IMG/VR virus record: IMGVR_UViG_3300031999_007154
Span: 1-26,410 of that record
Strand: one strand, 5' to 3'
DNA: 26,410 bases
From: a virus
Below are positions 613 to 14,994 of the stretch, piece after piece. The notes under the pieces were generated by a model. That model searched no databases. It was not told the DNA's origin and saw only the letters and a program-made list of their open reading frames with translations. The first letter of the stretch is position 1. The number at the start of each line of letters is the position of its first letter. A program made the translations under genes and the position numbers.

Positions 613-2056
613 GGTCCGTTTCCTCATCTGCCTGCGGCTGCGAGGGCTTCGGCTGGGCCTCGGCCATCGAGAGGCCGAGTTCCTTCATGAGCGCCACTTC
701 CTTCGCCCGCTGCCTCAGTTCCGTCTCCCAATCCTTGCCTTCCTTGGCGTATTCGCTGGCCAGGGTGGTTGTGTGGCTCGCCAGGCGCGTGGCCTGGGCG
801 TTGGCCTCCTTGGCCGGGTCCACATGCTCCATCCCGTCCCAGAACCACTGGTGGGGGTAATCGAGAAACGTCCGCGCTGACGCCGGCAGAAGGCCCGGCA
901 CACGCACCGCCTCGCGCAGCCAGGCGTCCAGAATGCGGTCAAGCACCGCGTCTTCCAGGTGGACCTGCTCGACGCGGATGCTCTTGAAATACGTCTGGTG
1001 GTCGAGGCGTCCGCTGGCGTAGTTGTAGGCCGACGAATCGCACAGCGCGATGTTGCGCGGCATGTTGAGGCACCGGGCGGCCTCGTTCAGTTTTTCGCGG
1101 ACGAACTCGACGTAGGTGGTTGCCGGCTGCTCGGGCTTAACCTGGCTCATCTTCCACCCGCCGGGCAGGGTCAGGAGCATGTTGCGTTCGAGCTCGATGG
1201 TATCCATCGGGTCGATGGGCTCAGCCTCGCCGTTGGGCGGGGCGTCGGTCTCGACCGTGCCGGAGATGTTGGCGGCCGTTTCGGCGGCATCGAGGACGGC
1301 CGACGTAAAGCGCCGGAGCTGCGCGAAGATCGGCAGCGCGGGCGTCAAGTCCGGGATGCCGCGACGCTGACCAGGCCTGTCGGCGCGGAACCAGTGGAGC
1401 ACCGCCTCTGCCGGCACGCGCTCGTAATCGAGGCCCAGGGACACCGCCGCCCCGGGATGGGTCTTCAAGACGTGGTACTCCACCGGGTTGCCGCTGGCGT
1501 CGAACACGATGCCGTCGACGCCGTTGGGCGTGCCCGCCTTCGCGGAGGCCAGTGCGGGCGAAGCCACCTGGTCGGCCTCGATGAGCCTGATGTCCAACGT
1601 CACCGGGGAGCCGATGTTCTCGTTCGAGATGAGAAGCGCGAAAGCCTCGCCGTCCTGGGCCCGGGCCATCCGCATGGTCCGCAGTTTGGCGGCAAGGCCG
1701 ACACGCGTCGCCCAACGCATGAATTCCTGCTCGATTGCGCGGTTGGCCTCGGCGCCAGCCGTGAGCATCTGGAGCCGCGGCCCCGTGCCAACGACGTCGT
1801 TGGCGAGGGTCAGCACGATCCCGCGGACGTAGGAGTTGTTGGCGACCTCATACCGCGCCCGGTTCCGCAGGACGCGGCGGACCTCGGCGCTTGCTGCGGC
1901 GTCGGCCGACAGGCCATCGGCCCCCGCCCAGTGCTTGCGGTTGCTGTCGGTCGTCTGCGCGGCATCGTACCGGCCCCGCACGAAGCGCACCGCCATCCGT
2001 AGCCCGCCGCCAGCGGGCTTTGCGACAGCACGGATGCGTTTGAGCCAAGCGAACAT
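587..2056 (-). CDS. Phage portal protein, lambda gpB type
   Basis: This protein of about 489 residues matches the lambda-type portal family, the dodecameric ring at the head vertex through which DNA is packaged. Supporting segments are VRRVLRNRARYEVANNSYVRGIV near the N-terminus, LANDVVGTGPRLQ, the RLIEADQV segment, the LHWFRADRPGQRRGIPDL segment (a family hallmark) and RCLNMPRNIALCDSSAYNYASGRLDHQTYFK near residues 340-370. The length fits the family. Either the GTG at 2059 or the ATG at 2056 could be the start; GGGAG lies five or seven bases upstream respectively. The GTG would make a 4-base GTGA overlap with the preceding small gene. The C-terminal tail is Gln/Glu/Asp-rich. Its place between a small head-module gene and the protease is the usual head-gene order. 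Confidence 0.95.
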   Translation of the reverse strand: MFAWLKRIRAVAKPAGGGLRMAVRFVRGRYDAAQTTDSNRKHWAGADGLSADAAASAEVRRVLRNRARYEVANNSYVRGIVLTLANDVVGTGPRLQMLTAGAEANRAIEQEFMRWATRVGLAAKLRTMRMARAQDGEAFALLISNENIGSPVTLDIRLIEADQVASPALASAKAGTPNGVDGIVFDASGNPVEYHVLKTHPGAAVSLGLDYERVPAEAVLHWFRADRPGQRRGIPDLTPALPIFAQLRRFTSAVLDAAETAANISGTVETDAPPNGEAEPIDPMDTIELERNMLLTLPGGWKMSQVKPEQPATTYVEFVREKLNEAARCLNMPRNIALCDSSAYNYASGRLDHQTYFKSIRVEQVHLEDAVLDRILDAWLREAVRVPGLLPASARTFLDYPHQWFWDGMEHVDPAKEANAQATRLASHTTTLASEYAKEGKDWETELRQRAKEVALMKELGLSMAEAQPKPSQPQADEETDREDQRRAV

Positions 2057-2253
2057 CACGCTGCTCCCGGCGGAACCACTTTCGTGAGGCGAACCCCCAG
2101 GCCCTTCGCCCGCGCGGCCTTCTTCGACGCCAGGTACCGGTCCGCCGCGATCTGGTCGGGGATCGAGTGCTGCTGCATGCTCCCCGCATCCCCCGACGCC
2201 GACTTCGGCCCCTCGGCATTCGTCCGAATCGCGTCGTCCAATTCGTCAGCCAC
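2056..2253 (-). CDS. Small head-module protein upstream of portal (gpW-like position)
   Basis: A 65-residue protein starts at GTG 2253 behind GAGGGG and ends in the first bases of the portal gene (GTGATG junction). It starts MADELDDAIRTNAEGP, contains HSIPDQIAADRYLASK in the middle and ends in a basic stretch with KGLGVRLTKVVPPG. No catalytic motif is seen. In lambda-like phages the gene in this position (W) encodes a small head-completion/joining protein, but the match here rests on position and size, not on sequence, so the role is inferred. A truncated second copy lies at 2857-2991 with the same IRTNAEGP and QHS-PDQIAAD core, which shows that this family has been duplicated locally. Confidence 0.7.
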   Translation of the reverse strand: MADELDDAIRTNAEGPKSASGDAGSMQQHSIPDQIAADRYLASKKAARAKGLGVRLTKVVPPGAA

Positions 2254-2831: not shown

Positions 2832-2859
2832 TTGTTCCACCGGTAGACAGGGCGGCTCA
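2832..2859 (-). repeat. Conserved leader box, copy 2
   Basis: This segment reads TTGTTCCACCGGTAGACAGG and then GCGGCTCAG. It matches the box at 2531-2558 with very few changes and sits upstream of the second copy of the small gene. It also forms the breakpoint of the truncated gene at 2857-2991, which runs into the box and ends on a stop codon within it. Confidence 0.6.
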
Positions 2860-2991
2860 GGGTGAGTGGGGCGTCTTGTCCGCCGCGATCTGGTCGGGCA
2901 GGCTGTGCTGCTTCATGCCGCCGGAATCGCCGTGGGCCTCGGCCGGCCCCTCAGCGTTCGTCCGAATCGCTTCCTCAAGATCGTCCGCCAC
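2857..2991 (-). pseudogene. Truncated copy of the gpW-position small gene
   Basis: Starting at GTG 2991 (or ATG 2997) the frame reads VADDLEEAIRTNAEGP, then the QHSLPDQIAADK core. It aligns residue for residue with the gene at 2056-2253. After the core Lys the homology ends abruptly: the conserved YLASKK tail and the basic C-terminus are missing, and the frame runs into the leader box and stops. This looks like a deletion product of an ancestral tandem array, not a functional gene. It shows that the phage region just left of the metabolic island has been rearranged. Confidence 0.6.
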
Positions 2992-3097
2992 TGCCATGCC
3001 CTCAGTCGCAACCGACCGGGCGAGCCGAAAAGAAAAGGCCGCGGGGGTGTGTGGCCCCACATGGCCTCGAATCTTCTCGGCATCCTCCCAACGGTGA

Positions 3098-3271
3098 TCA
3101 GCTGCGGGGCGGTCGTCCAGTCTTGTTGTCGCACACGATCTTCACGCGCAACCCCTGGGCAAGCAAGGCGGTTCCCGCCTGGACTGTGAAACCGTTACGC
3201 ACACAAACGTCGGCCCAGCCAGGAGCACGGGAGAAGGACGAGACGCGCGAACGGCCAAGGAGGAAGCAGCA
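3098..3271 (-). pseudogene. Remnant ORF directly behind the permease stop codon
   Basis: In the same frame as the ABC permease, immediately after its TAG, the sequence stays open for 57 codons to a TGA at 3098. The later part reads GWADVCVRNGFTVQAGTALL followed by AQGLRVKIVCDNKTGRPPRS. It looks like a genuine protein C-terminus, not random coding, but I do not recognise the family. There is no ATG; a GTG within VCVRNG could start a peptide of 34 residues. It may be the tail of a phage gene cut by insertion of the island, or of a tenth island gene. The rest of 2998-3271 shows no other gene and no hairpin terminator. Confidence 0.35.
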
Positions 3272-4018
3272 CTACTTGCCGGCCCAGTGAACCACTCGGC
3301 GTTCCACAAGGACAAACAGCTTGTTGAACAAATAACCGATTATCCCCGCCCATGCTATTGCGCAGTACATCTCTGGAACGTCGAAGACAAGATGGTACTC
3401 GTAGATGCGGTGTCCGAGCCCCTTTGGTGTGCCGAAGAACATCTCACTCACCACCACAAGGACTAAGGCCAAAGACAAAGCGGTCCGCAGGCCCACAATA
3501 ATCTGCGGGAGAGCGTCTGGGAGCACGATTTTCCACAGAATCTCGTATCTGTTCAGCCCAAACGCGCGTCCCACGAACCGCCTCAGACGGGGAGCATGGG
3601 ACACTCCGTAGTCCGCATTTACGATCATAATTAACGTGCATCCATAGATGACGACGGCCAGCTTGGGGCCATCTCCAACACCCATAACAAGAAGAAAGAG
3701 CGGGAACAAGGCGACCGGAGGAATTGACCTGAAGAAGTCGATCAGGAACTCCAAACTGCGCGAGATCCCTTTGAAGGAACCCGTCAGTATACCCACCGGA
3801 ATCCCCACCGCGGCCGAGACGCAGAGCCCCAGGAGCATCCTGCGTACGGTCACGAAGCAGTCAGGCCAGATCTCCCCCGTCTGAAAAGTAAGGCGGATGA
3901 AAGCATCCGCAACCTGAACCGGCGAAGGAAGGAGCAGGGGCGAGGCAACTCCCAGGGCATATATGGCCCACCAAAGGGCTAGGAGGGCGAGCGGGCCGAC
4001 AGTGATCCAGATCCTCAT
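3272..4018 (-). CDS. ABC transporter permease, SsuC/TauC/ThiX-like
   Basis: This inner-membrane protein of 248 residues starts MRIWITVGPLALLALWWAIY and has about six hydrophobic segments. The cytoplasmic EAA loop that contacts the ATPase is visible around residues 160-195: GRAFGLNRYEILWKIVLPDA, then LPQIIVGLRTALS. It belongs to the family of permeases for sulfonate, taurine, nitrate and thiamine-precursor importers (BPD_transp_1). The start at 4018 gives a 4-base ATGA overlap with the ATPase gene and has GGAGGA about 10 bases upstream; a start at 4036 would add six residues. Last gene of the operon. The substrate cannot be read from the permease. Confidence 0.92.
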   Translation of the reverse strand: MRIWITVGPLALLALWWAIYALGVASPLLLPSPVQVADAFIRLTFQTGEIWPDCFVTVRRMLLGLCVSAAVGIPVGILTGSFKGISRSLEFLIDFFRSIPPVALFPLFLLVMGVGDGPKLAVVIYGCTLIMIVNADYGVSHAPRLRRFVGRAFGLNRYEILWKIVLPDALPQIIVGLRTALSLALVLVVVSEMFFGTPKGLGHRIYEYHLVFDVPEMYCAIAWAGIIGYLFNKLFVLVERRVVHWAGK

Positions 4019-4815
4019 GGCGTAAGGTTCCTCCAAAAGGCCTCAATAGCGCGCGCCCGGACACTGAGGAACTCCTCGCTCCCAAGCATGCGTCGGGTTC
4101 TTGGCCGAGGCAGATTGACCTCCAGTGTCTCAACGACAGATGCGGGCAGAGGACTCAGGATGTAAAGCTTGTCTGCCAGGTAAATGGCCTCGTCTATCTC
4201 ATGGGACACGAACAGGGTGGTGATCCGCATGTGATGCCACACCCTAAGGAGCTCGTCGGCCATGCTCAGCCTGGTTTGGTAATCAAGGGCACCAAATGGC
4301 TCGTCCATGAGCAGAATGTGCGGACTCCCTACCAGCGCCCTTGCCAGGGCCGTGAGTTGCTTCTGCCCACCGCTCATCTGGTAGGGGAAATGCCCAAGCG
4401 GAATCCGAATGCCACATCGGACAAGGAACTCCTGCACGCGATGTCGACGGCTACGAACGCTTCCGTCCGTTGCTTCTAGCGGAAGCCCTATGTTGTCAAT
4501 GGCACGTCTCCAAGGGAAGAGGCTTCGCTCGTAATCCTGAAAGACATACCCTGCGCGAAAGGTTCCTGGTGGTTTCCCCCCAACAGAGGCAGTCCCCGAA
4601 TCGAACGGCACCAAACCGGCAACTACGTTCAAGAGTGTTGTCTTTCCACATCCATTCGGGCCGAATATGCTCACAAACTGCCCGGGTGCCGCCGAGATGC
4701 TCAGGTTGTCTATCACGAGCAGGCGAGAGTCGCCGTCCGCATAGCTCTTGCAGAGATGATCGACAACAACCCCCTGCTGGAACACGCTCGTCACCGCGGC
4801 ATCTTCAGTCACCAT
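4015..4815 (-). CDS. ABC transporter ATP-binding protein, SsuB/TauB-like
   Basis: A 266-residue cytoplasmic ATPase that should power the import system made with the neighbouring permease and binding protein. All nucleotide-binding motifs are intact: Walker A GPNGCGKT at 52-59, Q-loop VFQD with Gln 93, signature MSGGQ at 147-151, Walker B ILLMDE ending at 172, D-loop GALD and switch His 205 in FVSHEIDEA. The start at 4815 is chosen because a strong GGAGGC lies nine bases upstream. It overlaps the UbiV-like gene by 11 bases, which suggests translational coupling. A longer frame begins at 4920 but its extra 35 residues lie inside the preceding gene and lack family features. Confidence 0.93.
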   Translation of the reverse strand: MVTEDAAVTSVFQQGVVVDHLCKSYADGDSRLLVIDNLSISAAPGQFVSIFGPNGCGKTTLLNVVAGLVPFDSGTASVGGKPPGTFRAGYVFQDYERSLFPWRRAIDNIGLPLEATDGSVRSRRHRVQEFLVRCGIRIPLGHFPYQMSGGQKQLTALARALVGSPHILLMDEPFGALDYQTRLSMADELLRVWHHMRITTLFVSHEIDEAIYLADKLYILSPLPASVVETLEVNLPRPRTRRMLGSEEFLSVRARAIEAFWRNLTP

Positions 4816-5734
4816 GAACTGCCTCCAGCCCCGCTCGCGAGTAATACCAGCCATTACAGAAGCGCGGGTGCTCTGGCAGAGAAGCCAGTTCCTGATTTCC
4901 CGCACGCGGTGTTCTGCCATACGTTAGGGCCTCTACATAGACCCTTGCGGCCTCACACAGATACTGGAGTGGTCTTCCGAAGCCAGATACTCTGAAGAAA
5001 CCCACACCTCCTTGAACGAGCTCTCCTACCACGGCCAGCAGACACACGTCGGCTTCAGTCAGCAGGGATCGCCCCCAGATGCGGAAGACGGGCCTCTCGG
5101 TCCGGTCATCTGAGAGGACAGGGAGTTCGTGCCGGCCAATACACGTCCCAGCACACGACCACGGGTCCCCCGTCTCAACTTGACTACCGTAGCACCGCCG
5201 CGAAACAGCCGCCACGGCGGAGCCATGAACTAGAATCTCCACCGGAATGCGGGCGTGGGCGACCAGAGCCAGGACCTCCTCCCGACGGAGGTCAACCGGA
5301 AGGCAGACGCGGCTGACGCCAAGCTCGGCAAAGAGGTTTACATCCAGGTGATTGTAAGCATTCAGAAACTGCCCCGCGATGATCTCATACTGCCTCCGCC
5401 AAGATTTTTCAGCAGCATGCAGCATGCCCAGGTTGTTAATCACGATTCGCGTTGCACCCGCCTCGAGGCACTCCGCAGTCAGTTCCATGCACTGCCTCAC
5501 ACCCTCATCGCTCATGAGTAAGGCCGGCGTCGAGACGCTGACACATAGGCCAGCCTCGACACATCGCTTGACGGCATCCAGCAACGCTGACCGACGTAGC
5601 CGCCATCGGTCCATGCAGACGGGTTCACCCAGACGGATCTCATCGACAGCCGCTAAGGCTGCACCGTGCGCTGTCTCGGCATTCAGATCGTCAAGTTCCA
5701 GGACAAGACTCGGGTTTCCTTTCGCCTTAGGCAT
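4805..5734 (-). CDS. UbiV-like U32 family iron-sulfur protein
   Basis: A 309-residue U32 protein. The family was named for peptidases but includes the heterodimeric UbiU-UbiV pair, needed for oxygen-independent hydroxylation in ubiquinone synthesis with prephenate as oxygen donor. Candidate [4Fe-4S] ligands are C40 (in LGEPVCMDR) and C181, C194, C198. E. coli UbiV uses C39, C180, C193 and C197, so the pattern is the same with a one-residue offset. The typical EILVHGSAVAAVSRRCYGSQ segment precedes the cluster. The partner UbiU-like gene is four genes upstream in the same operon, an unusual separation. The gene starts nine bases after the binding-protein gene; its Shine-Dalgarno site is weak. 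A true UbiV role is unlikely because no other quinone gene is present, so a different substrate is inferred. It could also be an RNA-modifying U32 protein. Confidence 0.82.
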   Translation of the reverse strand: MPKAKGNPSLVLELDDLNAETAHGAALAAVDEIRLGEPVCMDRWRLRRSALLDAVKRCVEAGLCVSVSTPALLMSDEGVRQCMELTAECLEAGATRIVINNLGMLHAAEKSWRRQYEIIAGQFLNAYNHLDVNLFAELGVSRVCLPVDLRREEVLALVAHARIPVEILVHGSAVAAVSRRCYGSQVETGDPWSCAGTCIGRHELPVLSDDRTERPVFRIWGRSLLTEADVCLLAVVGELVQGGVGFFRVSGFGRPLQYLCEAARVYVEALTYGRTPRAGNQELASLPEHPRFCNGWYYSRAGLEAVHGD

Positions 5735-5743
5735 GACGCTCGC

Positions 5744-6751
5744 TCACTTCACGCCAAGGTCTTGCGGCGTAAGCACGAGATCCTTAGTGTCGACTCTTGC
5801 GGGCGCTGCCCCACACTCCGCAAACTTGTCGGCCAGTTCCTGCACACGCTTCCGGTCAATCTCCGAGGTCTTCCAGTACTCCGATCGGTTCATCTTCAGG
5901 CTCAACTCGGCAGAGGCCCCCGTGTACTTGGCCACAATCTCAGCGACGTCCTTTTCTGTTCCCGGCTTCCTCATGTACTCAATGGCATCCTCGACGCCTG
6001 CGATGATCCTGCGAGCCTTGTCTGGACCGTCTCTTGTGCCCTTCGACGTGAATGTGAGAGCCGAGATCGGGGTGGGCGGGGGGACCAGCCTTGCCATTGG
6101 GTTAGGCAGCAGCACCTCCGCAACCCCCTTTTCGACCGCAACCGTCGGCACCGGGTCCATGCAGTAGAGTGCGTCCACGCGACCGCTCGCGAGGGCGGCA
6201 TACATTGTGCCCGGCGTGATCTCGATGAACGTGCACTTGTTCGTGTCGATGACAGGCGATAGGACGGCTAGGCAGAACGCCTTGACAGCGGAACCGGGGT
6301 GAAGCCCTATCGTGCGCCCCTCAAGCTCCTTCAGCGACTTAATCCCCGCCTCTTTCCTCGAGATGATATAGTCGGGAAAGGCGTCCTCCTTCCACACCAA
6401 GAACGGGCCAAGTCTCAGCGTTCCGGGCTCTTTGTGCTCGACCGTCAACACGACATTCATGTTGCTCAGCCCTGCGGCATCAATCTGGCCTGCCAAGAGC
6501 GCCTGGAGTTGCTGGTTGGCATCCGCAAACTGGATCAGCTCCACGTCGAGGCCATGCTTCTCGAAGAACCCCTTCTCCTTGGCCACGAAGACGTGGCGGT
6601 ACAACGCGACCTGCTGGTAGCCGACCCGGCAAGTGAGAGCCGAACCAATCGCTTTCGGCCCCCCGTCTGGCCCTAATGCGAACCAGAGGACCAAACCAAG
6701 TACTCCAACAACGCACGCTGCAGCAATACACACTATGCTCTTGGTTGACAT
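5744..6751 (-). CDS. ABC transporter substrate-binding protein, NMT1/THI5/SsuA-like
   Basis: A 335-residue binding protein that would capture the imported compound outside the membrane. The N-terminus has a hydrophobic segment, IVCIAAACVVGVLGLVLWFA, without a good lipobox or an obvious signal-peptidase site, so it may be an uncleaved anchor. The type-2 periplasmic fold is evident: VGYQQVALYRHVFVAKEKGF followed by FEKHGLDVELIQFADANQQL near 43-80, LLAGQIDAAGLSN, SLKELEGRTIGLHPGSAVK, and LASGRVDALYCMDPVPTVAV. These are the standard segments of NMT1-like proteins binding sulfonates, nitrate, pyrimidines or thiamine precursors. The start ATG follows AAGGGGG with good spacing. Hydrolase neighbours make a cyclic amide or ureide ligand the best guess. 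Confidence 0.92.
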   Translation of the reverse strand: MSTKSIVCIAAACVVGVLGLVLWFALGPDGGPKAIGSALTCRVGYQQVALYRHVFVAKEKGFFEKHGLDVELIQFADANQQLQALLAGQIDAAGLSNMNVVLTVEHKEPGTLRLGPFLVWKEDAFPDYIISRKEAGIKSLKELEGRTIGLHPGSAVKAFCLAVLSPVIDTNKCTFIEITPGTMYAALASGRVDALYCMDPVPTVAVEKGVAEVLLPNPMARLVPPPTPISALTFTSKGTRDGPDKARRIIAGVEDAIEYMRKPGTEKDVAEIVAKYTGASAELSLKMNRSEYWKTSEIDRKRVQELADKFAECGAAPARVDTKDLVLTPQDLGVK

Positions 6752-6772
6752 CTCGGCCCCCTTTCATACGGA

Positions 6773-7189
6773 TCAGTACCACCAAAGCAGCAGCACCACA
6801 AGTGCTACTCCCAAGGTGGTGTACACTCCTGCGGCAACGAGCGGTACCCCGAAACTGTCGGCTTTGTTCCTGAGGCCGTCAGAGAGCCTGTCGTCAGCCG
6901 ACTGGCTCGTGTTCACGCCGGCCCCCCCACCGTCGCTCCTGAGAAGAAACGCCTCAAGTTTGCTCAGCTCGCCTTCAGCCATGAATGTGAAGATGGCGGC
7001 GATCAGAAAATACGCCAGAGCCAAGTATAGCCCGGCGGTACGGTGAGGATCGCTTGGCTTGTCCTCGACTACGACTGACACTAGAAGGTTCATGCTTGCA
7101 GCCACCAGGAGAGTTGACAGCATGGCCAGCCGCCGCGAATGCCTAGCCGCGCGGCCTAGCAGGACAACCAGTTTCTCCCAGTGCCCCAT
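6773..7189 (-). CDS. Small membrane protein of unknown function
   Basis: A 138-residue protein starting MGHWEKLVVLLGRAARHSRR. Three hydrophobic segments are predicted by eye: about residues 24-43 (MLSTLLVAASMNLLVSVVV), 54-72 (LYLALAYFLIAAIFTFMA), and the C-terminal 22 residues ending VVLLLWWY. A soluble acidic loop with Ser/Asp-rich DRLSDGLRNKADSF lies between the second and third. No family is recognised. The frame is open far upstream, but the start at 7189 is preferred: GAGGAG lies about nine bases before it and the previous gene stops only 13 bases upstream. Position before the binding-protein gene suggests an accessory membrane part of the importer or a membrane anchor for the operon's enzymes; both are guesses. 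Confidence 0.75.
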   Translation of the reverse strand: MGHWEKLVVLLGRAARHSRRLAMLSTLLVAASMNLLVSVVVEDKPSDPHRTAGLYLALAYFLIAAIFTFMAEGELSKLEAFLLRSDGGGAGVNTSQSADDRLSDGLRNKADSFGVPLVAAGVYTTLGVALVVLLLWWY

Positions 7190-7202
7190 GAGCCAAGGCT
7201 CC

Positions 7203-8468
7203 TCAATGTTTGGTGAGGATTGCCCACTGATCCGTGATTGCCTTCTCGAACGCTCCTCGTTCCTGCCCACGCAGCATCTTCTGGCTTCTCGCTCTTGCCT
7301 TAAGCTCTTCGATGGGGAGATCGAGTGCTGTCTCGGCGGCGTCGCAGAAGCCTTTGACAATCTTTCCACACGCATCCCATCGCTCGCCTGTCTTGTCATC
7401 GGCCAATCCGCAGACGTTGGGCCCGGCAGCCCTAAGACTGTCAAGAAGACGCTTCATCAACCGGGCGTGGTACACTTCCGCCCACCATATGAAGTCCTTC
7501 TCTTCCAGCGGCCTCGCCAGGTTAAGAGTCGGAATATCTCTGAGCATCTGACCCCTCAACGCGACATCGAGCATGTCGTTCGTAAACTGGATAAGCGCCT
7601 CGACCGCGCGTGGGTCTGAAGCAGCGCCGGTCGGACAGGGAGCCTGACGCAGTCGAGAGCTCAGGGCGGTGTCGCTTGGCCCGCGCGCACCTTCGGGATG
7701 ACGCGATGGCTCCGCGGGCTGTCTCGCAGCAAACAGGTTAAACGCCCTCACAAAGTGGGCAACGGCTTCCTGGTCAACCCCTCTCCGATAGAACTCCTCA
7801 AACACTGCGAACACAGCCCGTGGAAAGAAGCGCACACCGTACAGGCTACAGGCCAAACTGTTCAGGTTCACGGCCGCCAGCAAGTCCGGAGAATCAAAGA
7901 GTGAGTGCTCCGTCAGTTCATGGCCCATGAAGACTGCCGCGTCAAGATCGCCCCGAAGGACCATCATTCGTCGCCTGTCGGCAAGCCCCGCTGGCAGATG
8001 GACGGCGCCCGTGATTGGGAAGTCTGAATGACCGTGATCTGGCTGTCTTGCACTGCAGAAAAAGTAGAAATCGGGGCACCAGTGGTGAAGGATGACTCTT
8101 GACAGATTGGTGGTCGTCAACTGGCCTTCGAGGACACCTATGCGAAACGGACCGTTCGGGCCCCTGAGCACTCCTGTGCGCCTAAACACATAGATATCAT
8201 CGCGCGTCTCAAAGGCCGGACCTATGACCCTGAGCCCCTCAGTCGCGACATGCAACGCGCAGTGCGCAACAGGCAGGACTAGAATGGGCACGACACCATC
8301 ACGGGCTCGGCTTCTCACAATGGCATATGCGGCCCCCTGGGAACCGGTCTTCTCAACATCGAGGTGCACCACATGCAGAGTCCAGCCCAATCCGGAGAGG
8401 TGGAAGTTCACACCTCCGTAGACCTCGTCCCACATTGGCGGTAGGAATAGACAGATGGTGGGATTCAT
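7203..8468 (-). CDS. Unknown two-part protein, N-terminal part faintly like a type-2 binding protein
   Basis: A 421-residue protein without signal peptide or membrane segment. The first 220 residues have a pattern reminiscent of type-2 periplasmic-binding folds: FRIGVLEGQLTTTNLSRVIL (the region where such proteins have a first ligand-binding loop) and RRMMVLRGDLDAAVFMGHEL further on. The match is weak, and a cytoplasmic sensor or small-molecule enzyme is as likely. A linker at about 250-285 is rich in Pro, Ser and Arg (see the repeat at 7617-7712). The C-terminal 135 residues are helical and charged, with WWAEVYHARLMKRLLDSLRA and KGFCDAAETALDLPIEELKA. I do not recognise the family. It starts three bases after the UbiU-like gene stops, behind a GAGG site, so it is tightly coupled to it. 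Confidence 0.75.
   Translation of the reverse strand: MNPTICLFLPPMWDEVYGGVNFHLSGLGWTLHVVHLDVEKTGSQGAAYAIVRSRARDGVVPILVLPVAHCALHVATEGLRVIGPAFETRDDIYVFRRTGVLRGPNGPFRIGVLEGQLTTTNLSRVILHHWCPDFYFFCSARQPDHGHSDFPITGAVHLPAGLADRRRMMVLRGDLDAAVFMGHELTEHSLFDSPDLLAAVNLNSLACSLYGVRFFPRAVFAVFEEFYRRGVDQEAVAHFVRAFNLFAARQPAEPSRHPEGARGPSDTALSSRLRQAPCPTGAASDPRAVEALIQFTNDMLDVALRGQMLRDIPTLNLARPLEEKDFIWWAEVYHARLMKRLLDSLRAAGPNVCGLADDKTGERWDACGKIVKGFCDAAETALDLPIEELKARARSQKMLRGQERGAFEKAITDQWAILTKH
7617..7712. repeat. Possible dispersed genomic repeat inserted in frame
   Basis: This stretch encodes the linker SRHPEGARGPSDTALSSRLR and the residues after it, inside the 421-residue unknown protein. The wording, built from CATCCCGAAGGTGCGCG and CAGGCTCCCTGTCCG-like segments on the minus strand, resembles short dispersed palindromic repeats found many times in some environmental genomes. 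It separates the two halves of the protein and does not look like a folded domain. Only one copy is in this window, so the call rests on resemblance. Confidence 0.3.
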
Positions 8469-8471
8469 CCC

Positions 8472-9365
8472 TCAGTCCTCTCTTGGCACTGCGCCAGCCA
8501 AGCAGGCGCGAATGGCAACGATGCTGTCACACAACGGCAGTATGAATCCCGCCCGGCCGTTGACTTTCAGGCCTTCGACGCCGGTCCGCATGATCTCAGA
8601 CAGGTTGACTCGGATCTGCTCGCCGGGAACCTGAAGAAGAAAAGGGCTGCGGTCGCCAGACCTGGACCATCGCACTCTGCAAGGATTGTGGAGGGTCGCG
8701 ACGCTTAGCGTCCCCACGGCGCCAGTAAGTGTAGGGAAGAACGACTGGCGTCGCTCCACGCAGTGAGCGCGGTCACGTGTCGCTGGCCCGCAGCAACCGT
8801 CGGCATGAATCCGCTGAGTGGAGAGAAAGCTGTTCATGTAGCATCTACCGTCAAGGTTCGCACACCAATTGCCAGCAACAAATGTCCTTATCCTTACCTG
8901 ACTGCCGCTGGACGAGACAAGCCGACGGATTTCATCCAGAGTCATCTGCCGGGCCGCAGTTACCTCGCGCGCGCCGATCTCGCCCAACAACCTCGCACCT
9001 CGGGCATTTGATGCACCAGCCCACACCGACGCGATAATCATGACGTCATACTTGCGGGAGACGGCGCTGATGACACCCAGGCTTGAGAGAATCAGGCCGT
9101 CTGGCGAGCATCGGACCACGTGATCCAGAAGGCCGAAGTACGCTTCGATCTGCGGTGTCGTCGGCAGCGTATTCGCGCAGAAGTAGGCGCGCACGCCATG
9201 CTGATGCGCATACTCGATGACGCGAGTGATTTCATCGCGAGGGAAGTTCGCGGCATGGTTTGCCCGGAGGTTGAATTGATCTGACCCGAAGTAGATGGCG
9301 TCGGCACCTGCTGCCACCACTGCCCGCAGCATCTCCCACGAACCTGCTGGCGCCATGATCTCCAT
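8472..9365 (-). CDS. UbiU-like U32 family iron-sulfur protein
   Basis: A 297-residue U32 protein beginning MEIMAPAGSWEMLRAVVAAG and continuing ADAIYFGSDQFNLRA, the classic U32 N-terminal segment. Candidate [4Fe-4S] ligands are C168 and C175 (in GNWCANLDGRCYMNSF), C191 or C192 (GCCGPA) and C229 (NPCRV). In E. coli UbiU they are C169, C176, C193 and C232, almost the same spacing. UbiU forms a heterodimer with UbiV; a UbiV-like protein is encoded at 4805-5734. The protein lacks the extra C-terminal domain of larger U32 proteins such as RlhA or TrhP. ATG at 9365 is chosen because GAGGA lies nine bases upstream; a GTG at 9371 is too close to that site. An oxygen-independent hydroxylase role on an unknown substrate is inferred. 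Confidence 0.85.
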   Translation of the reverse strand: MEIMAPAGSWEMLRAVVAAGADAIYFGSDQFNLRANHAANFPRDEITRVIEYAHQHGVRAYFCANTLPTTPQIEAYFGLLDHVVRCSPDGLILSSLGVISAVSRKYDVMIIASVWAGASNARGARLLGEIGAREVTAARQMTLDEIRRLVSSSGSQVRIRTFVAGNWCANLDGRCYMNSFLSTQRIHADGCCGPATRDRAHCVERRQSFFPTLTGAVGTLSVATLHNPCRVRWSRSGDRSPFLLQVPGEQIRVNLSEIMRTGVEGLKVNGRAGFILPLCDSIVAIRACLAGAVPRED

Positions 9366-9446
9366 AGTCACCTGTCCTCGCTGACCCGCCGCTCGCGGCG
9401 CCCAGCCACGCGATTAGCCAAGTTCCACCGGAAAAGCCTAGGGCGC

Positions 9447-10112
9447 CTAGCCCCCCGATTTGTGTTCCGACCAACGAGTCTGGACCGACACGAGTTGCTC
9501 CGCCAGATCGCGGAGAGACGTCACGTCGCAGTATTTTGCATCCAGATCGGACAGGCTTGCATCGTGTGCGCCTTGCAGTCTGTCCCCAACACAGTCCCGG
9601 ACCACGACGGTGCGGAAGCCGTGCTGCACAGCGTCTACGGCGGTTGCACGAACGCAACCACTAGTTGTGCACCCCGCGATGATCACCGTATCCACCTGTT
9701 GAGCTCGGAGCACCGAGGCGACGATGGTTCCGAAGAAGGCCGAGGCGTATCTCTTCGTCACCAGCAGCTCATGGGAGCGCCTACCAAGAGCAGGCAGTAG
9801 CTCAACGCATCGCCTTCCAACTCTCAACTCGCGGAGAGAAGGCATCTTCGCCAACCACACTCCTGCTTCTGCCTCGGGGTCATCGTACGCCGTGGTGGTG
9901 AATAGTATCGAAAGGTGCATCTCGCGCGCGATACGGAGTAGCCGGGAAGTATTGCGGCAGACCTCTCGGAGATCAAAGCCGAAAGGCTTCTTCGGATCGG
10001 CAAATGCCCTGATCATGTCCACCACCAGCACTGCTGGCCGAGTGCCCAACTCGATCCTGCCGCCAAACACTGCAGATGAGTACGTCTCATGCTTTGGCCG
10101 CGTGATGCTCAC
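9447..10112 (-). CDS. Cysteine hydrolase, N-carbamoylsarcosine amidase/isochorismatase-like
   Basis: A 221-residue isochorismatase-superfamily enzyme. The D-K-C triad is visible: D32 in AVLVVDMIRAF, K120 in LLVTKRYASAF and the nucleophile C153 in AGCTTSGCVRATAVDA. The TTSGCVRATAVDA and VRDCVGDR segments are especially close to N-carbamoylsarcosine amidohydrolases, which release ammonia and CO2 from N-carbamoyl amino acids. The start is a GTG that overlaps the stop of the hydantoinase gene as GTGA, with AGGGA just upstream, so the two are translationally coupled. Coupling fits a two-step route in which the hydantoinase opens a cyclic ureide and this enzyme removes the carbamoyl group. The true substrate could be N-carbamoylsarcosine, N-carbamoyl-beta-alanine, another N-carbamoyl amino acid or a ureidoacrylate. 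Confidence 0.88.
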   Translation of the reverse strand: MSITRPKHETYSSAVFGGRIELGTRPAVLVVDMIRAFADPKKPFGFDLREVCRNTSRLLRIAREMHLSILFTTTAYDDPEAEAGVWLAKMPSLRELRVGRRCVELLPALGRRSHELLVTKRYASAFFGTIVASVLRAQQVDTVIIAGCTTSGCVRATAVDAVQHGFRTVVVRDCVGDRLQGAHDASLSDLDAKYCDVTSLRDLAEQLVSVQTRWSEHKSGG

Positions 10113-11518
10113 GGGGTCCCTATCGGAAGACCGAAGGCCGGGAGGGATCGTCTGAGGAACGTCCCGTACCCCTTTCGTCCACAGAAGGTCCCATTCCTTA
10201 CGAGCGTCTGCCCTCGGAGCAGCGTGACCTCCGGCCACCCGCAAAGCTCCATGCCCTCGTACACGACATGGTCAACGTTCATGTGAAGCCCGCCAGCCCT
10301 GACCGTTTTCTTCACCTTAGGGTCGATCACCACCAGGTCCGCGTCGCTTCCCGGGAGGATCGCCCCTTTCCTGGGATAGAGCCCGAACAGGCGCGCCGGC
10401 CCAGAACTCATCCGAGAGACAAGGTTCTCCAGAGTGATACGCTTCCCAAGGACACCGCATGTATACAGAAGAGGCAAACTAAGTTCAATCCCCGCCAAGC
10501 CGTTTGGCACTTCTGCAAAGCTCTTGGCTTGCGCTTTCTGATCGGAGTTCAATGGGGCATGATCTGTGGCTACCACCGAGATTGTTCCGTCGGCCAGGCC
10601 TTCCCACAGCGCATCCTGTTCATGCTTCGGCCGCAGGGGCGGGCTAACTATGAAGCGCGCCCCGTCCGGCCCTGCGTATACCTCACTGTCCAGCAAGAGG
10701 TAATGCGGACAGGTTTCTGCGAACACGCGCTGGCCCGCGCTTCTTGCGGTACGGATTTCGCGAGCCCCTCCGGCCGTGGACATGTGGAACACGTAGAGCG
10801 CGCAGCCTACACTCCCGGCCAAGAAGGTAGCCCTTCGTATCGCCTCAACCTCAACGAAACTCGGCTTTGACTTGGGGAATGACTCTGGGCCTATGGCTCC
10901 GCCACGACAGAGGGAGGTCGTCAAGTGCTCAGCAATTGCGTCGTTCTCTGCGTGGACACCCGCTAGAGCGCCTGTCTCGCAAGCGGCTTCCATTACGCTC
11001 AGAAGGTGGCCATCATCTATCATGAGGCCGTGACGCCCGTAGGTCATGAATAGTTTGAAGGACGTGAGCCCCGCGTCAACTGCTTCTCTAACAGCCCTCG
11101 CGATACGTGGAGTTGACGGCAGTATGCACGGGTGAAAACCGAAATCCACTACGCAGGAGCCATCCGCGAGCCGCATCTCTTTGTCTATCGCGGCGGCAAG
11201 TTCTTCACCGGGCCCGGGGAAAACGAAATCAATGATGGTCGTTGTCCCATTGAAGGCGGCAGCGACTGACCCGGTGTAGTAATCATCCCGGTATGCAACT
11301 CCCCCGAAGTGTATCTGCAGATGGGTGTGCGCGTCAACCAGACCGGGAAGAACGAACTTCCCTTGTGCGTCAATCACTCGCTTTGCTGGGGGGGCCGTTC
11401 CTGGCAAGAACAAGCCCGCAACACGACCGTCTCGGATGGCGATGTCACAGCAAGTCCTGCCGCTTTCCGTGACGACCGTTCCGCCCTCGACGATGATGTC
11501 GACCTCACTACCCACCAT
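10109..11518 (-). CDS. D-hydantoinase / dihydropyrimidinase-type amidohydrolase
   Basis: A 469-residue cytoplasmic metalloenzyme of the cyclic-amidohydrolase group (D-hydantoinase, dihydropyrimidinase, allantoinase). All expected ligands of the two-metal site are present: H64 and H66 in VDAHTHLQ, the Lys to be carboxylated K155 in FKLFMTYG, H189 in GVHAEN, H245 in FHMSTAG and D319 in ATDHAPLN. The FKLFMTYG segment with a Tyr is more like hydantoinase/dihydropyrimidinase than dihydroorotase or allantoinase. It should open a hydantoin or dihydropyrimidine ring to an N-carbamoyl amino acid. First gene of the operon, starting at ATG 11518 with GGGGA five bases upstream and about 36 bases from the predicted transcription start. 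Confidence 0.92.
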   Translation of the reverse strand: MVGSEVDIIVEGGTVVTESGRTCCDIAIRDGRVAGLFLPGTAPPAKRVIDAQGKFVLPGLVDAHTHLQIHFGGVAYRDDYYTGSVAAAFNGTTTIIDFVFPGPGEELAAAIDKEMRLADGSCVVDFGFHPCILPSTPRIARAVREAVDAGLTSFKLFMTYGRHGLMIDDGHLLSVMEAACETGALAGVHAENDAIAEHLTTSLCRGGAIGPESFPKSKPSFVEVEAIRRATFLAGSVGCALYVFHMSTAGGAREIRTARSAGQRVFAETCPHYLLLDSEVYAGPDGARFIVSPPLRPKHEQDALWEGLADGTISVVATDHAPLNSDQKAQAKSFAEVPNGLAGIELSLPLLYTCGVLGKRITLENLVSRMSSGPARLFGLYPRKGAILPGSDADLVVIDPKVKKTVRAGGLHMNVDHVVYEGMELCGWPEVTLLRGQTLVRNGTFCGRKGYGTFLRRSLPAFGLPIGTP

Positions 11519-11553
11519 TTGTTCCCCACAAGGCCGCGAGAGAAAGAGGATGC

Positions 11554-11589
11554 GTTCGATAGGCTACTACTGCACAAGGGACTCGTCAA
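11554..11589 (-). promoter_or_regulatory. Predicted promoter of the nine-gene operon
   Basis: On the minus strand a -35-like TTGACG (11589-11584) is followed after exactly 17 bases by TAGCCT (11566-11561). The -35 box matches five of six consensus bases, the -10 only three, as is common in activator-dependent promoters. Transcription would start near 11554, leaving a short leader of roughly 36 bases before the hydantoinase ATG. No other promoter is evident inside the operon, whose genes are mostly overlapping or within 25 bases of each other; the largest gap is 81 bases after the carbamoyl hydrolase. Confidence 0.5.
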
Positions 11590-11634
11590 GGACTTCTTTC
11601 TATCCAGGACTTCTTTCTATCCTTCTTTCTATCC
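11589..11634 (-). promoter_or_regulatory. Three tandem operator-like repeats abutting the -35 box
   Basis: Read on the minus strand, GGATAGAAAGAA occurs three times in a row. Copies two and three extend to a perfect 17-base direct repeat, GGATAGAAAGAAGTCCT, at 11622-11606 and 11605-11589; the first copy at 11634-11623 is 12 bases long. The last copy overlaps the TTGACG -35 box by one base. Direct repeats directly upstream of a weak promoter are the usual geometry for a transcription activator. No regulator gene is present in the operon, so it would be encoded elsewhere. Replication slippage is the alternative explanation. Confidence 0.5.
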
Positions 11635-11799
11635 AGCCAGGCACAGACCCCGCGACACGGCTTGTCCGCGGCGTGAACGGCCCTCAGAGTCGGCTAAGCG
11701 GAGCAGACCCTCGGAACCGGCACAGAAGCCAGTGCAAATCGGGCACTTGCACGTCCGGTGTGAGCCGAAGTCTGCTGGATTCGCTCGCTGAGCGTCCTT

Positions 11800-11998
11800 T
11801 CACCGCGAGAGGTCGCCGATCCGGTTGGTCAGACTGCCGGAGATCTCCCAGGTTATCATCCGCCCGCCGCAATGGCGGCACTCGCGGCGGCGCCGGATGC
11901 GGCCGCCCCAGGCGGGGCGGGCGTAGATGACGCGGAAATGCCTGCAGCCGCGGTGGCGGCAGCGAGGCCCGACAGGCCGGACAGACGCCCAGGCACAT
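11800..11998 (-). pseudogene. Frameshifted zinc-ribbon gene remnant (paralog of the gene after the terminase)
   Basis: Translated in one frame to a TGA at 11800, this reads RCRHRGCRHFRVIYARPAWG, then GRIRRRRECRHCGGRMITWE. It aligns with the zinc ribbon at 14995-15213 (VCRKCGCGHFYTIYTRAKPG, LKECRHCGHRMTT). That frame has an upstream stop and no start codon. The only nearby ATG, at 11998, is in another frame and reads MCLGVCPACRAS, itself a CxxC half-site. One frameshift near 11965 would join them. I take it as a decayed gene, but programmed frameshifting cannot be excluded. It marks the phage-side edge of the island; 11635-11799 shows no gene. Confidence 0.45.
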
Positions 11999-12025
11999 AT
12001 GGCCTGGGCGTCTTGGGAGGTACGG

Positions 12026-12898
12026 CTACTGGCGGACGGCGGCGGTCAGTTCGAAGTACCCCCGCAGGCTGACAGCCTTGCCGCCCTTCGTTTCCTTGAC
12101 CTGGGCGCGGCGGAACCGGGCCTTCGCGCCCTTGGCGGCGCACTCGCGGATGATTGCGGCGTAAAGCGTGGCGGCAGGCGTCGCGCCCTTGGTCTGCCAG
12201 TAGCCCTTCGCCAGGGCTTCCTTGACGATGTCCTGGCAGCCCATCGGCTTGCCCGCCTCCTGGAGGACGCGGACGGCCGCATCGAGGACCCCGCCCTTAC
12301 GCTCGCCCTTGGGCTTGGCGGCCTTGGCCTTCTTCGCCTTGCGGCCTTCCTCGGCGGCCTTGACGGCGGCGTCGAGTTCCGGGTCGGGCTTGCCGGCCTT
12401 GTCGGCGATCTCCTTCCGCCAGGCGGCGACCTTAGCGGCCTTCTCCGTCTTGGCGACGTCCTTCTGCGCCCGGTAGTGGGCCTCCAGGGGGTTGGTGGCT
12501 TCGCCCCCGGCGGCCACGGGCGCGGTCTTGGCATCCTTGGCCACTTCGGCCGCCGGTTTGGCCCCCACGGCAACGTGGGCCGCCGGGGCGGCCTTGCGGC
12601 CGGCCTCGGCCCGCAGCCGCTGGGCGGACTTGATGCGGACCGCCTTCTTCGTGGCCAGGTTCGTCGCGTCCCAACCGCCGTGGGGGTTCTCGCGGTCGAT
12701 GCGGACATGGGGGAGTTTGTCCGACACGCGGGCGATGTACTCGCCACCCAGTTTCACGTCGTGCTTCTTCATGACTCGACTCCTTCTCTGGTGCTGCGGT
12801 TCTGTTCGTGCGGCCGCTTGCCGGATGGCATCGTGCTTCGCCGCGATCCTCGCGGCGCGACGTGCGGCCCGCTCTTGTCTCTGCTTCAGCGTCAACAT
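12026..12898 (-). CDS. HARE-HTH domain protein
   Basis: A 290-residue, strongly basic protein in three parts. Residues 1-42 are Arg/Ala-rich. Residues 43-100 form a small domain (KKHDVKLGGEYIARVSDKLP and WDATNLATKKAVRIKSAQRL). A long Ala/Lys linker follows, then a C-terminal HARE-HTH winged helix at about 203-285 (GVLDAAVRVLQEAGKPMGCQ, KGYWQTKGATPAATLYAAII, GYFEL). HARE-HTH domains occur in restriction enzymes, RNA polymerase delta and chromatin proteins and are thought to sense DNA or modified bases. ATG 12898 has a perfect AGGAGGT. An in-frame ATG at 12772 has AAGGAG eight bases upstream, so a shorter second product is possible. Its association with a phage that carries DNA-modification genes is noteworthy. 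Confidence 0.8.
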   Translation of the reverse strand: MLTLKQRQERAARRAARIAAKHDAIRQAAARTEPQHQRRSRVMKKHDVKLGGEYIARVSDKLPHVRIDRENPHGGWDATNLATKKAVRIKSAQRLRAEAGRKAAPAAHVAVGAKPAAEVAKDAKTAPVAAGGEATNPLEAHYRAQKDVAKTEKAAKVAAWRKEIADKAGKPDPELDAAVKAAEEGRKAKKAKAAKPKGERKGGVLDAAVRVLQEAGKPMGCQDIVKEALAKGYWQTKGATPAATLYAAIIRECAAKGAKARFRRAQVKETKGGKAVSLRGYFELTAAVRQ

Positions 12899-12907
12899 GG
12901 CGACCTC

Positions 12908-13255
12908 CTACTTGCTCGGCGGCCGATACCGCATGCCGCACGTGCTGCACTTCACCTTGCCGTTATCCTGCCAGACCAGGTTGTCCACGTTTCGCTCGCG
13001 GCACTTCGGGCAGGCGTCGGCCTCGGCCACCAGTTCGTCCGCTTGGGCATTGATGGCGTCGCGGACGTAGTCCACATCGATGGACTCGGGGTCGTCCAGG
13101 CCCGCCGCCATGTCCTGGATGACGCCTTCTAGGCCGTCGAGGTCGCGGCCGATGGCCCGCTCGACCTCGCGGCATTTCTCCCAGACCTCGTGCAGGGCGG
13201 CGACGGCGGCCCGCATGGTCGGGAGGATCGTCTCGGCTTGCTTCGTGGTGATCAC
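12908..13255 (-). CDS. Small protein with C-terminal zinc ribbon
   Basis: A 115-residue protein with a helical N-terminal two thirds (TMRAAVAALHEVWEKCREVE, then an acidic stretch with DDPESIDVDYVRDAINAQAD) and a C-terminal zinc ribbon: CPKC near residue 83 and CSTCGMRY near residue 103. The function is unknown. It starts at GTG 13255 behind a near-perfect AAAGGAGGAG and ends nine bases before the HARE-HTH gene, so the two are probably co-expressed. Confidence 0.75.
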   Translation of the reverse strand: MITTKQAETILPTMRAAVAALHEVWEKCREVERAIGRDLDGLEGVIQDMAAGLDDPESIDVDYVRDAINAQADELVAEADACPKCRERNVDNLVWQDNGKVKCSTCGMRYRPPSK

Positions 13256-13279
13256 AGATCTCCTCCTTTCTGTTTGGCG

Positions 13280-13756
13280 CTACAGCGAGCGCTCGATGTC
13301 CGCAATCTCGACACCTCGCAGGGCGGCCAGGACCTCCAGGAGGCCGCTGCGAACGCGGTACAGGTCGCCTGTCCGAGACCAGTCCTTGGGCTCGGCCTTG
13401 GCCTGCTTGGCGTGCTTCGCCAGTGCCTGCCCGAGCCAGTCCAGCAGGCGGTCGATGTCGCGCCGGCGCTCGGCGTACATCTCGGCGGCCGTCTGCCCGT
13501 CCTTCGTCGGCGCGGCTACGCCCGTCTCAAGGAACGCCAAGAACGCCTCGCGCGTCATCGGCTCGTGGGCCTGGACGCTGCCGGGCCGCTCGACGCACCA
13601 CAGGCGGGCGTCTTCGGGGTCCACGCTCACCTTCACGCGGCCCTGCGCCAGGCGGTTCGCCTCACGGACCGTCAGCGGCCACCAGGCCTCGTGCTGGGCC
13701 TTCTGGGCGGCCGAGAGGTCGATGTACCCGTCCGTCTTCTTCGCCTTCTTCGCCAT
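13280..13756 (-). CDS. Phage protein of unknown function
   Basis: A 158-residue soluble protein starting MAKKAKKTDGYIDLSAAQKA. It contains WWPLTVREANRLAQGRVKVS, SVDPEDARLWCVERPGSVQA and a helical C-terminus with RRDIDRLLDWLGQALAKHAK. No known motif is seen. The start at 13756 is fixed by AAAGGAG; the frame extends 24 codons further upstream, through the conserved leader repeat at 13799-13856, but without a ribosome site. Confidence 0.7.
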   Translation of the reverse strand: MAKKAKKTDGYIDLSAAQKAQHEAWWPLTVREANRLAQGRVKVSVDPEDARLWCVERPGSVQAHEPMTREAFLAFLETGVAAPTKDGQTAAEMYAERRRDIDRLLDWLGQALAKHAKQAKAEPKDWSRTGDLYRVRSGLLEVLAALRGVEIADIERSL

Positions 13757-13798
13757 CGCGTTCTCCTTTCTTGGTTTACATGCCCATGCGTCTATGCT

Positions 13799-13856
13799 GA
13801 TCAGGGCATGCAATTCGCCCCGATGCAAGGCGGATTCCGGAATATTCCGGCAACCG
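13799..13856 (-). repeat. Leader repeat, copy 1
   Basis: This segment begins GATCAGGGCATG and continues with CGCCCC, GCAAGGCG and a later GCAAC. It recurs in the same order at 14904-14956. Each copy lies about 40-100 bases upstream of a good start codon (13756 and 14863) in otherwise tightly packed phage DNA. This copy also holds the palindrome ATTCCGGAAT (13834-13843). It is a promoter, operator or leader peptide, or a duplicated remnant; the sequence does not decide. Confidence 0.5.
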
Positions 13857-13858
13857 CC

Positions 13859-14086
13859 CTACCGGCCGAGGGGCGTCACCTCGAAGTCCCAAAACCAGTA
13901 CTCGCCCTCCTTGTTCCTGGCGACGGCCGGCGCGACGCCCGCCGTTACCTTGACCCGGTATAGCCACCCGCCGTCGAACTCGCCCATCGTGACGACGCCG
14001 TCGCACTCCTCGCCGAAGTGGTCGCTCTTGATGTGGACCCGCGTGCCGTTCGCCAGGCGCGGCGGGCGTTTCTGCTTCGTGGCCAT
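13859..14086 (-). CDS. Small beta-rich protein, possibly KOW/SH3-like
   Basis: A 75-residue protein starting MATKQKRPPRLANGTRVHIK and continuing SDHFGEECDGVVTMGEFDGG, then WLYRVKV and a WFWDFEVTPLG end. The spacing of Gly and hydrophobic residues (GTRV-I, G-V-MGEFDGGWLYRVKV) fits a small beta barrel of the KOW or SH3 kind, such as bind nucleic acid, but this is inferred from the pattern only. Good AAGGAG before the ATG. Confidence 0.65.
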   Translation of the reverse strand: MATKQKRPPRLANGTRVHIKSDHFGEECDGVVTMGEFDGGWLYRVKVTAGVAPAVARNKEGEYWFWDFEVTPLGR

Positions 14087-14155
14087 AGCATCTCTCCTTG
14101 CGGCGGAATTGCCGGGCTAGGGGTCGCCTGCGGGCGGCCCGTCGCCGGGCACCTC

Positions 14156-14584
14156 CTACCGGCCCGTCCACTCCACCAGGACGCCGCCGTCGATGAGGTT
14201 CCAGCCCCACTGGTCACCCCATGCAGCCGGCGGCCGGATGGTCGCCAGCAGCGCGTCGGTTCCGGTCTGGCGGAGTTCCACCTTGCAGCCGACCTGGGTG
14301 GCGTACCACGCGGGGGCGTCGGTGCGGCAGACGAGGCGGCGGGGCTTCGGGTTCACCACCCGCGTCCAGGGGATGTCGTCGCGCTGGGCGGTGTCGAAGT
14401 TGTTGTTGAAGAACTGCGGGTCCGCCCCGTTGCCGGACCAGTGGCAGGTGCAGACGTGGCGCGGGAAGTCCGGCTCGAAGGTAATCCGGTCGATGACCCA
14501 CTCGTAACCGCCGCGGATGACCACGTCATTCACCCGCAGGTCTTTGCCCAACACGTTCTCGGTCTTGCGTGCTGCCGTCTTCAT
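14156..14584 (-). CDS. Phage protein of unknown function
   Basis: A 142-residue protein starting MKTAARKTENVLGKDLRVND. It contains VVIRGGYEWVIDRITFEPDF, HVCTCHWSGNGADPQFFNNN and a WGWNLIDGGVLVEWTG end. Many Trp and Gly residues suggest a beta-rich fold. No family is recognised. AAGGAG stands before the ATG, and the gene begins 24 bases after the previous one stops. Confidence 0.7.
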   Translation of the reverse strand: MKTAARKTENVLGKDLRVNDVVIRGGYEWVIDRITFEPDFPRHVCTCHWSGNGADPQFFNNNFDTAQRDDIPWTRVVNPKPRRLVCRTDAPAWYATQVGCKVELRQTGTDALLATIRPPAAWGDQWGWNLIDGGVLVEWTGR

Positions 14585-14608
14585 GGTCTGCTCCTTGTTC
14601 TGGTCGCC

Positions 14609-14863
14609 TCAGTCGGCGAAGGTCTGGATGGCCCGCAGGTAGTCGGCCACGTCGCCTGCGGTCCCCTGGTATCCGTCGAGTTCCCGCTGGAGGCGGGCGG
14701 CGGCATACTGCTGGCTGCGCTCGTCTCGGGTGTCGACGTTCAGGTCGAAGATGCCCGCCGCCCCGTCGCCGCGGATGCCGATGACCGCCTTCCCCGCCAC
14801 CTCGCGGGGGGCGATGTTCGCCCAGCCCTTCGTGCCCTCGACCGTCATTCGCGTCACTTTCAT
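14609..14863 (-). CDS. Small phage protein of unknown function
   Basis: An 84-residue protein with a beta-rich first half (MKVTRMTVEGTKGWANIAPR, VIGIRGDGAAGIFDLNVDTR) and a helical second half ending LRAIQTFAD. No catalytic motif. A perfect GAAGGAG precedes the ATG. The leader repeat at 14904-14956 lies directly upstream. Its function is unknown. Confidence 0.7.
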   Translation of the reverse strand: MKVTRMTVEGTKGWANIAPREVAGKAVIGIRGDGAAGIFDLNVDTRDERSQQYAAARLQRELDGYQGTAGDVADYLRAIQTFAD

Positions 14864-14903
14864 CTTGTTCTCCTTCGCGTTGCGTGTTCGCCCCCACCAC
14901 GTG

Positions 14904-14956
14904 GATCAGGGCATGTTTTCGGCCCCAAAGCAAGGCGAATAATGGAGGCAACTGCA
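14904..14956 (-). repeat. Leader repeat, copy 2
   Basis: GATCAGGGCATG, then GGCCCC, GCAAGGCG and GCAAC in the same order as at 13799-13856. It lies 41-93 bases before the start of the 84-residue gene. On the minus strand both copies can be read as IRLA-G----CPD, so a small leader peptide is possible, but no clear start and Shine-Dalgarno site is present for one. Confidence 0.5.
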
Positions 14957-14994
14957 TAATTCTTAATGGCCTACCGGAAGCCTGACGACGGCCT

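Follow-up and report, generated by a model that had tools for sequence, protein, structure and literature searches.

The locus analyzed here raises two questions: how a nine-gene operon that combines ring-opening hydrolases, two U32-family proteins, and an ABC importer came to lie in a virus genome, and which substrate such a gene set could serve. The window, that is, the whole stretch of 26,410 bases that was analyzed, is identical with an IMG/VR virus record. An earlier note on this DNA had described nine packed minus-strand genes encoding a hydantoinase, an amidase, two U32 proteins, an NMT1-type importer, and two unknown proteins. ORF calling and family searches confirmed this gene content: nine intact, tightly packed ORFs occupy positions 3272-11518, all on the minus strand (Table 1), and follow one another from 11518 downward in the order HYD, IHase, U32a, two orphan proteins, SBP, U32b, ATPase, and permease.

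The called ORF starts are too long for IHase, the 138-aa orphan, the ATPase, and the permease, and the true starts are likely to be at about 10112, 7189, 4815, and 4018, respectively; the permease ATG at 4018 overlaps the stop codon of the ATPase gene. With these predicted starts the genes are separated by short gaps or overlap throughout, and therefore we infer from the sequence that they likely form one operon. In all nine genes GC content is higher at the third than at the second codon position, as should be the case for coding sequence. U32a directly follows IHase, and U32b is woven into the import module, since it is placed between SBP and the ATPase. Family searches found no SCP2/UbiT or other quinone gene among the nine, in agreement with the earlier note. 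Searches of genomes, plasmids, Pfam, PDB, and PADLOC gave no relative for the 421-aa orphan, and its single-sequence AlphaFold model (pLDDT 35) was uninformative.

Table 1. Features of the operon and of its phage surroundings, by position in the window
Feature	Position	Strand	Family or remark
Portal protein, phage	587..2059	-	
gpW-like small protein, phage, head-tail joining position	2056..2253	-	
Relic copies of two small phage genes	2597..2871	-	91% to L016
Relic second gpW-like copy adjoining the cargo	2857..2992	-	83-85% to other phages, 76% to own gpW
Cargo insertion, whole, ~8.7 kb	3131..11800	-	GC 58-60%, flanks 67-69%
ABC importer permease	3272..4036	-	PF00528
ABC importer ATPase	4015..4920	-	PF00005
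U32b, UbiV-like U32 protein	4805..5734	-	PF01136
SBP, NMT1/SsuA-type substrate-binding protein, N-terminal hydrophobic anchor	5744..6751	-	PF09084
Orphan protein, 138 aa, several hydrophobic stretches	6773..7189	-	ORF opens at 7444; without family match
Orphan protein, 421 aa	7203..8468	-	Without family match
U32a, UbiU-like U32 protein	8472..9371	-	PF01136
IHase, N-carbamoylsarcosine-amidase-like cysteine hydrolase	9447..10244	-	PF00857
HYD, D-hydantoinase/dihydropyrimidinase-type amidohydrolase	10109..11518	-	TIGR02033
Relic second copy of post-terminase zinc-ribbon gene	11800..12000	-	
Small phage gene block	12026..14962	-	Joins gpW directly in L008
Terminase large subunit, phage	15210..17342	-	

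The operon is inserted between the terminase and portal genes of a phage, and the phage genes flanking it include, besides these two, genes for a ParB-methyltransferase, a Mom-like protein, a primase, a helicase, and a Sak4-like protein. Its GC content is about 59% (57-61%) versus 66-72% in the phage parts on either side, and third-position GC is 0.62-0.74 in the operon genes versus 0.85-0.90 in the phage genes. On the left of the insertion, phage homology stops near 3130; on the right it resumes at 11844, and the reading frame of the zinc-ribbon relic extends to about 11800. Some further features of the phage part were observed. The ParB-methyltransferase fusion adjoins the Mom-like DNA modification gene (17592-19762), which suggests that the phage DNA is modified. 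A perfect inverted repeat of 12-13 bp at 11983-12013, immediately after the gene at 12026-12898, is probably a terminator hairpin. The small-gene block is inverted and located upstream of the terminase gene in three related contigs (L003, L011, and L012), and downstream of it in the window and in L008.

IMG/VR commonly contains relatives of the portal protein with about 90% identity. The operon sequence was absent from the 100 viral loci fetched as relatives of the phage, and no relatives of U32a and HYD were found in viral contigs. In most close relatives with long enough contigs, the distance from the terminase gene or the small-gene block to gpW is 165-440 bp: a few hundred bases separate the zinc-ribbon gene that follows the terminase from the gpW gene that precedes the portal in L003, L006, L010-L013, L017, and L029, and in L008 the same small-gene block as in the window is joined straight to gpW within about 440 bp. 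Two close relatives, L004 and L016, contain other bacterial-type DNA at the cargo site. These are unusual phage loads, LEPR-XLL and PEP-CTERM proteins in L004 (1-2707) and a repeat-domain protein in L016 (1-465).

The host phylum is shown to be Planctomycetota; of the 294 Planctomycetota genomes sampled, 26 encode the portal protein at 45-67% identity, with up to five copies per genome. The five and three portal copies in genomes G586 and G508, respectively, suggest several related prophages per host. Across 14 Planctomycetota genome loci, the gap between terminase and gpW is between 86 bp and 2.9 kb long; seven of them hold an extra 0.9-2.9 kb, mostly of lower GC content, that encodes AbiEi/AbiEii pairs, HNH and GIY-YIG nucleases, and candidate defence proteins recognized by PADLOC. 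The terminase-portal gap in 73 measurable viral contigs is 80-3657 bp. In both collections the accessory site often holds toxin-antitoxin or defence genes. By eye, an AAA ATPase with an RloB-like gene (L074, 5000-9751), an AbiE-like pair (L039, 747-2512), and a DprA-like gene (L028, 790-2509) also seem to occupy this site in further viral relatives, and it is likely a defence hotspot of these phages. The 8.7-kb load of the window is the largest seen among the 14 genome loci and 73 viral contigs. The accessory genes of related planctomycete prophages share with the window cargo the insertion site and a GC content below that of the phage, whereas their loads are of 0.9-3.7 kb and mostly defence-type rather than metabolic. 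The planctomycete virus Phage-ZRK32 (PMC10945688) carries nitrogen-metabolism genes, as does the window; however, these are separate auxiliary metabolic genes for amide and glutathione chemistry and not a nine-gene operon for import and ring opening.

Taken together, the phage genes on both sides, the sharp GC step, the absence of the operon from close relatives, and the variability of the site make it very probable that a Planctomycetota phage carries a foreign bacterial operon as cargo in its accessory site between terminase and portal. The relics flanking the cargo are copies of the very genes found at the edges of the site, with zinc-ribbon at one end and gpW at the other. As with the gpW-like relic (Table 1), the zinc-ribbon relic is closer to other phages (up to 80%) than to the corresponding gene of the window (73%), and this greater similarity of both flanks to other phages suggests phage-to-phage transfer. 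The cargo and its borders probably came as one block out of a related phage, through predicted recombination in the zinc-ribbon and gpW genes. No convincing terminal repeats or target duplications were found at the junctions, the two junction regions have no common repeat longer than 9 bp, there is no tRNA at the insertion site, and an Rfam search of 11400-12100 for intron or mobile RNA gave nothing above the gathering score. Origins by a group II intron, a transposon, or an integron were dropped, as the junction sequence is without any such signal.

Two alternatives concern the origin of the insertion. A host chromosomal operon could have been trapped in a decaying prophage, or inserted by accident, without any role for the phage; the flanking relic copies do point to rearrangement, and DNA of similarly low GC content and bacterial type lies at the same spot in L004. 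We regard this as improbable, because phage genes, among them those for terminase, portal, and helicase, are intact, the portal and terminase are 90-96% like those of the nearest relatives, and the site is a regular cargo site. Less probable still is an assembly chimera of bacterial and phage contigs: the operon is seen on a single contig only, and its junctions rest on one assembly, but on either side of it the sequence continues in one and the same phage lineage, at the known accessory site, and the junction regions share no repeat longer than 9 bp.

The hydrolase classes assigned in the earlier note are borne out, with catalytic residues complete in both enzymes. HYD scores 464 bits against the TIGR02033 D-hydantoinase model, above its curated cut-off of 393, and the ligands of the binuclear metal site (H64, H66, K155, H189, H245, and D319) are complete and invariant in the alignment; its nearest genome relatives, among the matches listed, are 36-44% identical. 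The best PDB match of IHase is N-carbamoylsarcosine amidohydrolase (CSHase; 185 bits), and the catalytic triad D76, K164, and C197 is in place. The HYD-IHase pairing has a precedent, since the two are adjacent in Sphaerobacter (L121), beside genes of a peptide/solute ABC importer that belongs to a different family from the NMT1-type importer of the window. Both enzyme families, with their catalytic residues, are also those of hydantoin and N-methylhydantoin degradation (D-hydantoinase/dihydropyrimidinase plus N-carbamoylsarcosine amidase); however, the cases of this pathway that were seen are without U32 partners.

U32a and U32b score 79.5 and 86.7 bits against PF01136 (cut-off 22.4) and are encoded in one operon at nonadjacent positions. 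Their best matches are UbiU and UbiV, with 122 and 121.5 bits, far below the equivalog cut-offs of 440 and 275 bits, respectively. In UbiU (CX6CX16CX38C) and UbiV (CXnCX12CX3C), four cysteines each have been shown to bind a [4Fe-4S] cluster (PMC6747719). Counterparts of all eight are present in the window pair: C170, C177, C194, and C231 in U32a by alignment with UbiU, where the last spacing is X36 versus X38 and C231 is two columns off, and C40, C181, C194, and C198 in U32b, in the pattern CXnCX12CX3C. The substrates of the characterized U32 oxidases are ubiquinone precursors or RNA (PMC11574389); TrhP and RlhA hydroxylate C5 of RNA pyrimidines and require prephenate (PMC6599085, PMC11574389), and a Glu essential in both, E162 of TrhP, is needed for tRNA and rRNA hydroxylation (PMC6599085). 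U32b keeps Glu at this position; U32a has R162, in contrast to the Glu of all 31 other U32 proteins in the comparison. This Arg weakens the hydroxylation proposed in the earlier note. The activity may reside in U32b, with U32a as a partner of changed chemistry, or the predicted reaction may be unlike that of the known U32 oxidases.

In a phylogenetic tree, which the earlier note had called for, U32a and U32b lie outside the true UbiU and UbiV clades (clade support 99.8/100 and 97.8/100), and adding a planctomycete UbiU-UbiV pair does not change this placement. U32b groups with UbiV as its sister (support 94/96), and U32a is weakly placed next to UbiU. Like UbiU-UbiV of E. coli (PMC6747719), the window has two U32 proteins in one operon with four cysteines each at equivalent positions; unlike that pair, its proteins (about 23-31% identical to it) fall outside the clades, one of them lacks the catalytic Glu, and their partners are hydrolases and an importer instead of UbiT or quinone genes. 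TrhP and RlhA (PMC6599085) share with the window pair the U32 family, the Fe-S cysteine motif, and the Glu kept in U32b, but they form separate clades, act on RNA, and are single-gene systems.

A search for the same neighbourhood in other genomes, also proposed in the earlier note, returned, within limited searches, no second genome with this gene set or with U32 genes beside these hydrolases. None of 80 fetched hydantoinase loci, taken among the matches listed and covering up to 10 kb on each side, had a U32 gene nearby. No clear ortholog of U32b was found across a sample of about 1,700 genomes, drawn from Chloroflexota, Planctomycetota, Pseudomonadota, Acidobacteriota, Bacillota, Myxococcota, and a Zixibacteria-type phylum, an empty result that shows little. 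The best U32b relative, from a planctomycete-class genome, is a UbiV encoded beside UbiU and an SCP2 gene. A locus in a genome of the same planctomycete class as G586 (L259; G1304 contig 37, 8705-11226) encodes UbiU, UbiV, and a UbiT-like SCP2 protein next to a molybdopterin oxidoreductase, an Fe-S subunit, and NrfD, and could be MAG contamination; no genome outside the alpha-, beta-, and gammaproteobacteria and Acidithiobacillia was reported to have two of UbiU, UbiV, and UbiT (PMC6747719). In Acidobacteriota, two loci (L205 and L206, 447-3416) encode three short tandem U32 proteins, none of them in the UbiU or the UbiV clade. We found no paper joining the terms 'peptidase U32' and 'hydantoinase', and no report of such a metabolic operon as phage cargo.

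From their protein families, the importer genes, HYD, and IHase point to import, ring opening, and deamidation. In the proposed pathway, SBP, the ATPase, and the permease would take up the putative substrate, a small cyclic ureide or pyrimidine, and the Fe-S pair U32a/U32b, with U32b most likely as the catalytic subunit, would modify its ring. By family analogy this step would be an oxygen-independent hydroxylation, for instance at pyrimidine C5, yielding a hydrolysable keto form; on chemical reasoning, tautomerisation of a C5-hydroxylated uracil could give a saturated keto compound whose ring a dihydropyrimidinase could open. HYD would then open the ring to an N-carbamoyl acid, and IHase would split off the carbamoyl or amide nitrogen as ammonia, leaving an acid that the lysogen could use. 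The order of these steps, the U32 reaction, expression of the cargo, and the benefit to the lysogen are what we infer. That the operon serves uptake and hydrolysis of a cyclic ureide or pyrimidine has, in our judgment, an even chance of being right, whereas hydroxylation of the imported compound by the U32 pair is unlikely. The full version, a phage-borne oxygen-independent pathway in which an Fe-S U32 heterodimer would hydroxylate a free imported pyrimidine or cyclic ureide, followed by hydantoinase action without dihydropyrimidine dehydrogenase, is more doubtful again. Against the proposal, the cargo may not be expressed, and the ligand of SBP is not readable from the sequence. Moreover, nothing comparative shows that the genes work together, because no second instance of the set was found.

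The main competing account of the function is plain use of hydantoin or N-methylhydantoin by the known route from hydantoin through an N-carbamoyl compound to an amino acid, with the U32 pair acting elsewhere, on RNA or quinones, or being a bystander. We consider this possible, though clearly short of probable. It agrees with the HYD, IHase, and importer genes found without U32 in Sphaerobacter, with the similarity of IHase to N-carbamoylsarcosine amidases, with the 80 hydantoinase loci (among the matches listed) devoid of U32 neighbours, and with the loss of the catalytic Glu in U32a. However, U32b lies inside the transporter module and U32a right after IHase, and the retention of two intact U32 genes with all their cysteines in a size-limited phage genome suggests that they are used. 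Given the position of U32b within the transporter module, we judged a view limited to the hydantoinase incomplete and retain it as a rival. A divergent ubiquinone system for anaerobic conditions that just happens to be located among transport genes would account for the best matches to UbiU and UbiV and for the conserved cysteines, but the scores far under the equivalog cut-offs, the placement of both proteins outside the clades, the lack of UbiT in the operon, and the missing Glu of U32a make it very unlikely.

As a whole, the explanation that we favor, phage cargo genes by which a cyclic ureide or pyrimidine would be taken up, opened by hydrolysis, and deamidated, is in our estimate evenly balanced between right and wrong, and the metabolic operon as phage cargo is its better supported part compared with the chemistry. 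Of the uptake, hydroxylation, and hydrolysis hypothesis in the earlier note, the enzyme classes and their residues stand, hydroxylation is weakened, and the phage cargo setting had been missed. The window presents a planctomycete phage with a whole uptake-and-degradation operon at a site where its relatives keep small, often defence-type cargo. With its link to an importer and to hydrolases that open rings, the U32 pair offers a concrete, testable case for a third type of U32 substrate; if the proposal is true, U32 oxidases would act on a small molecule outside RNA and quinones.
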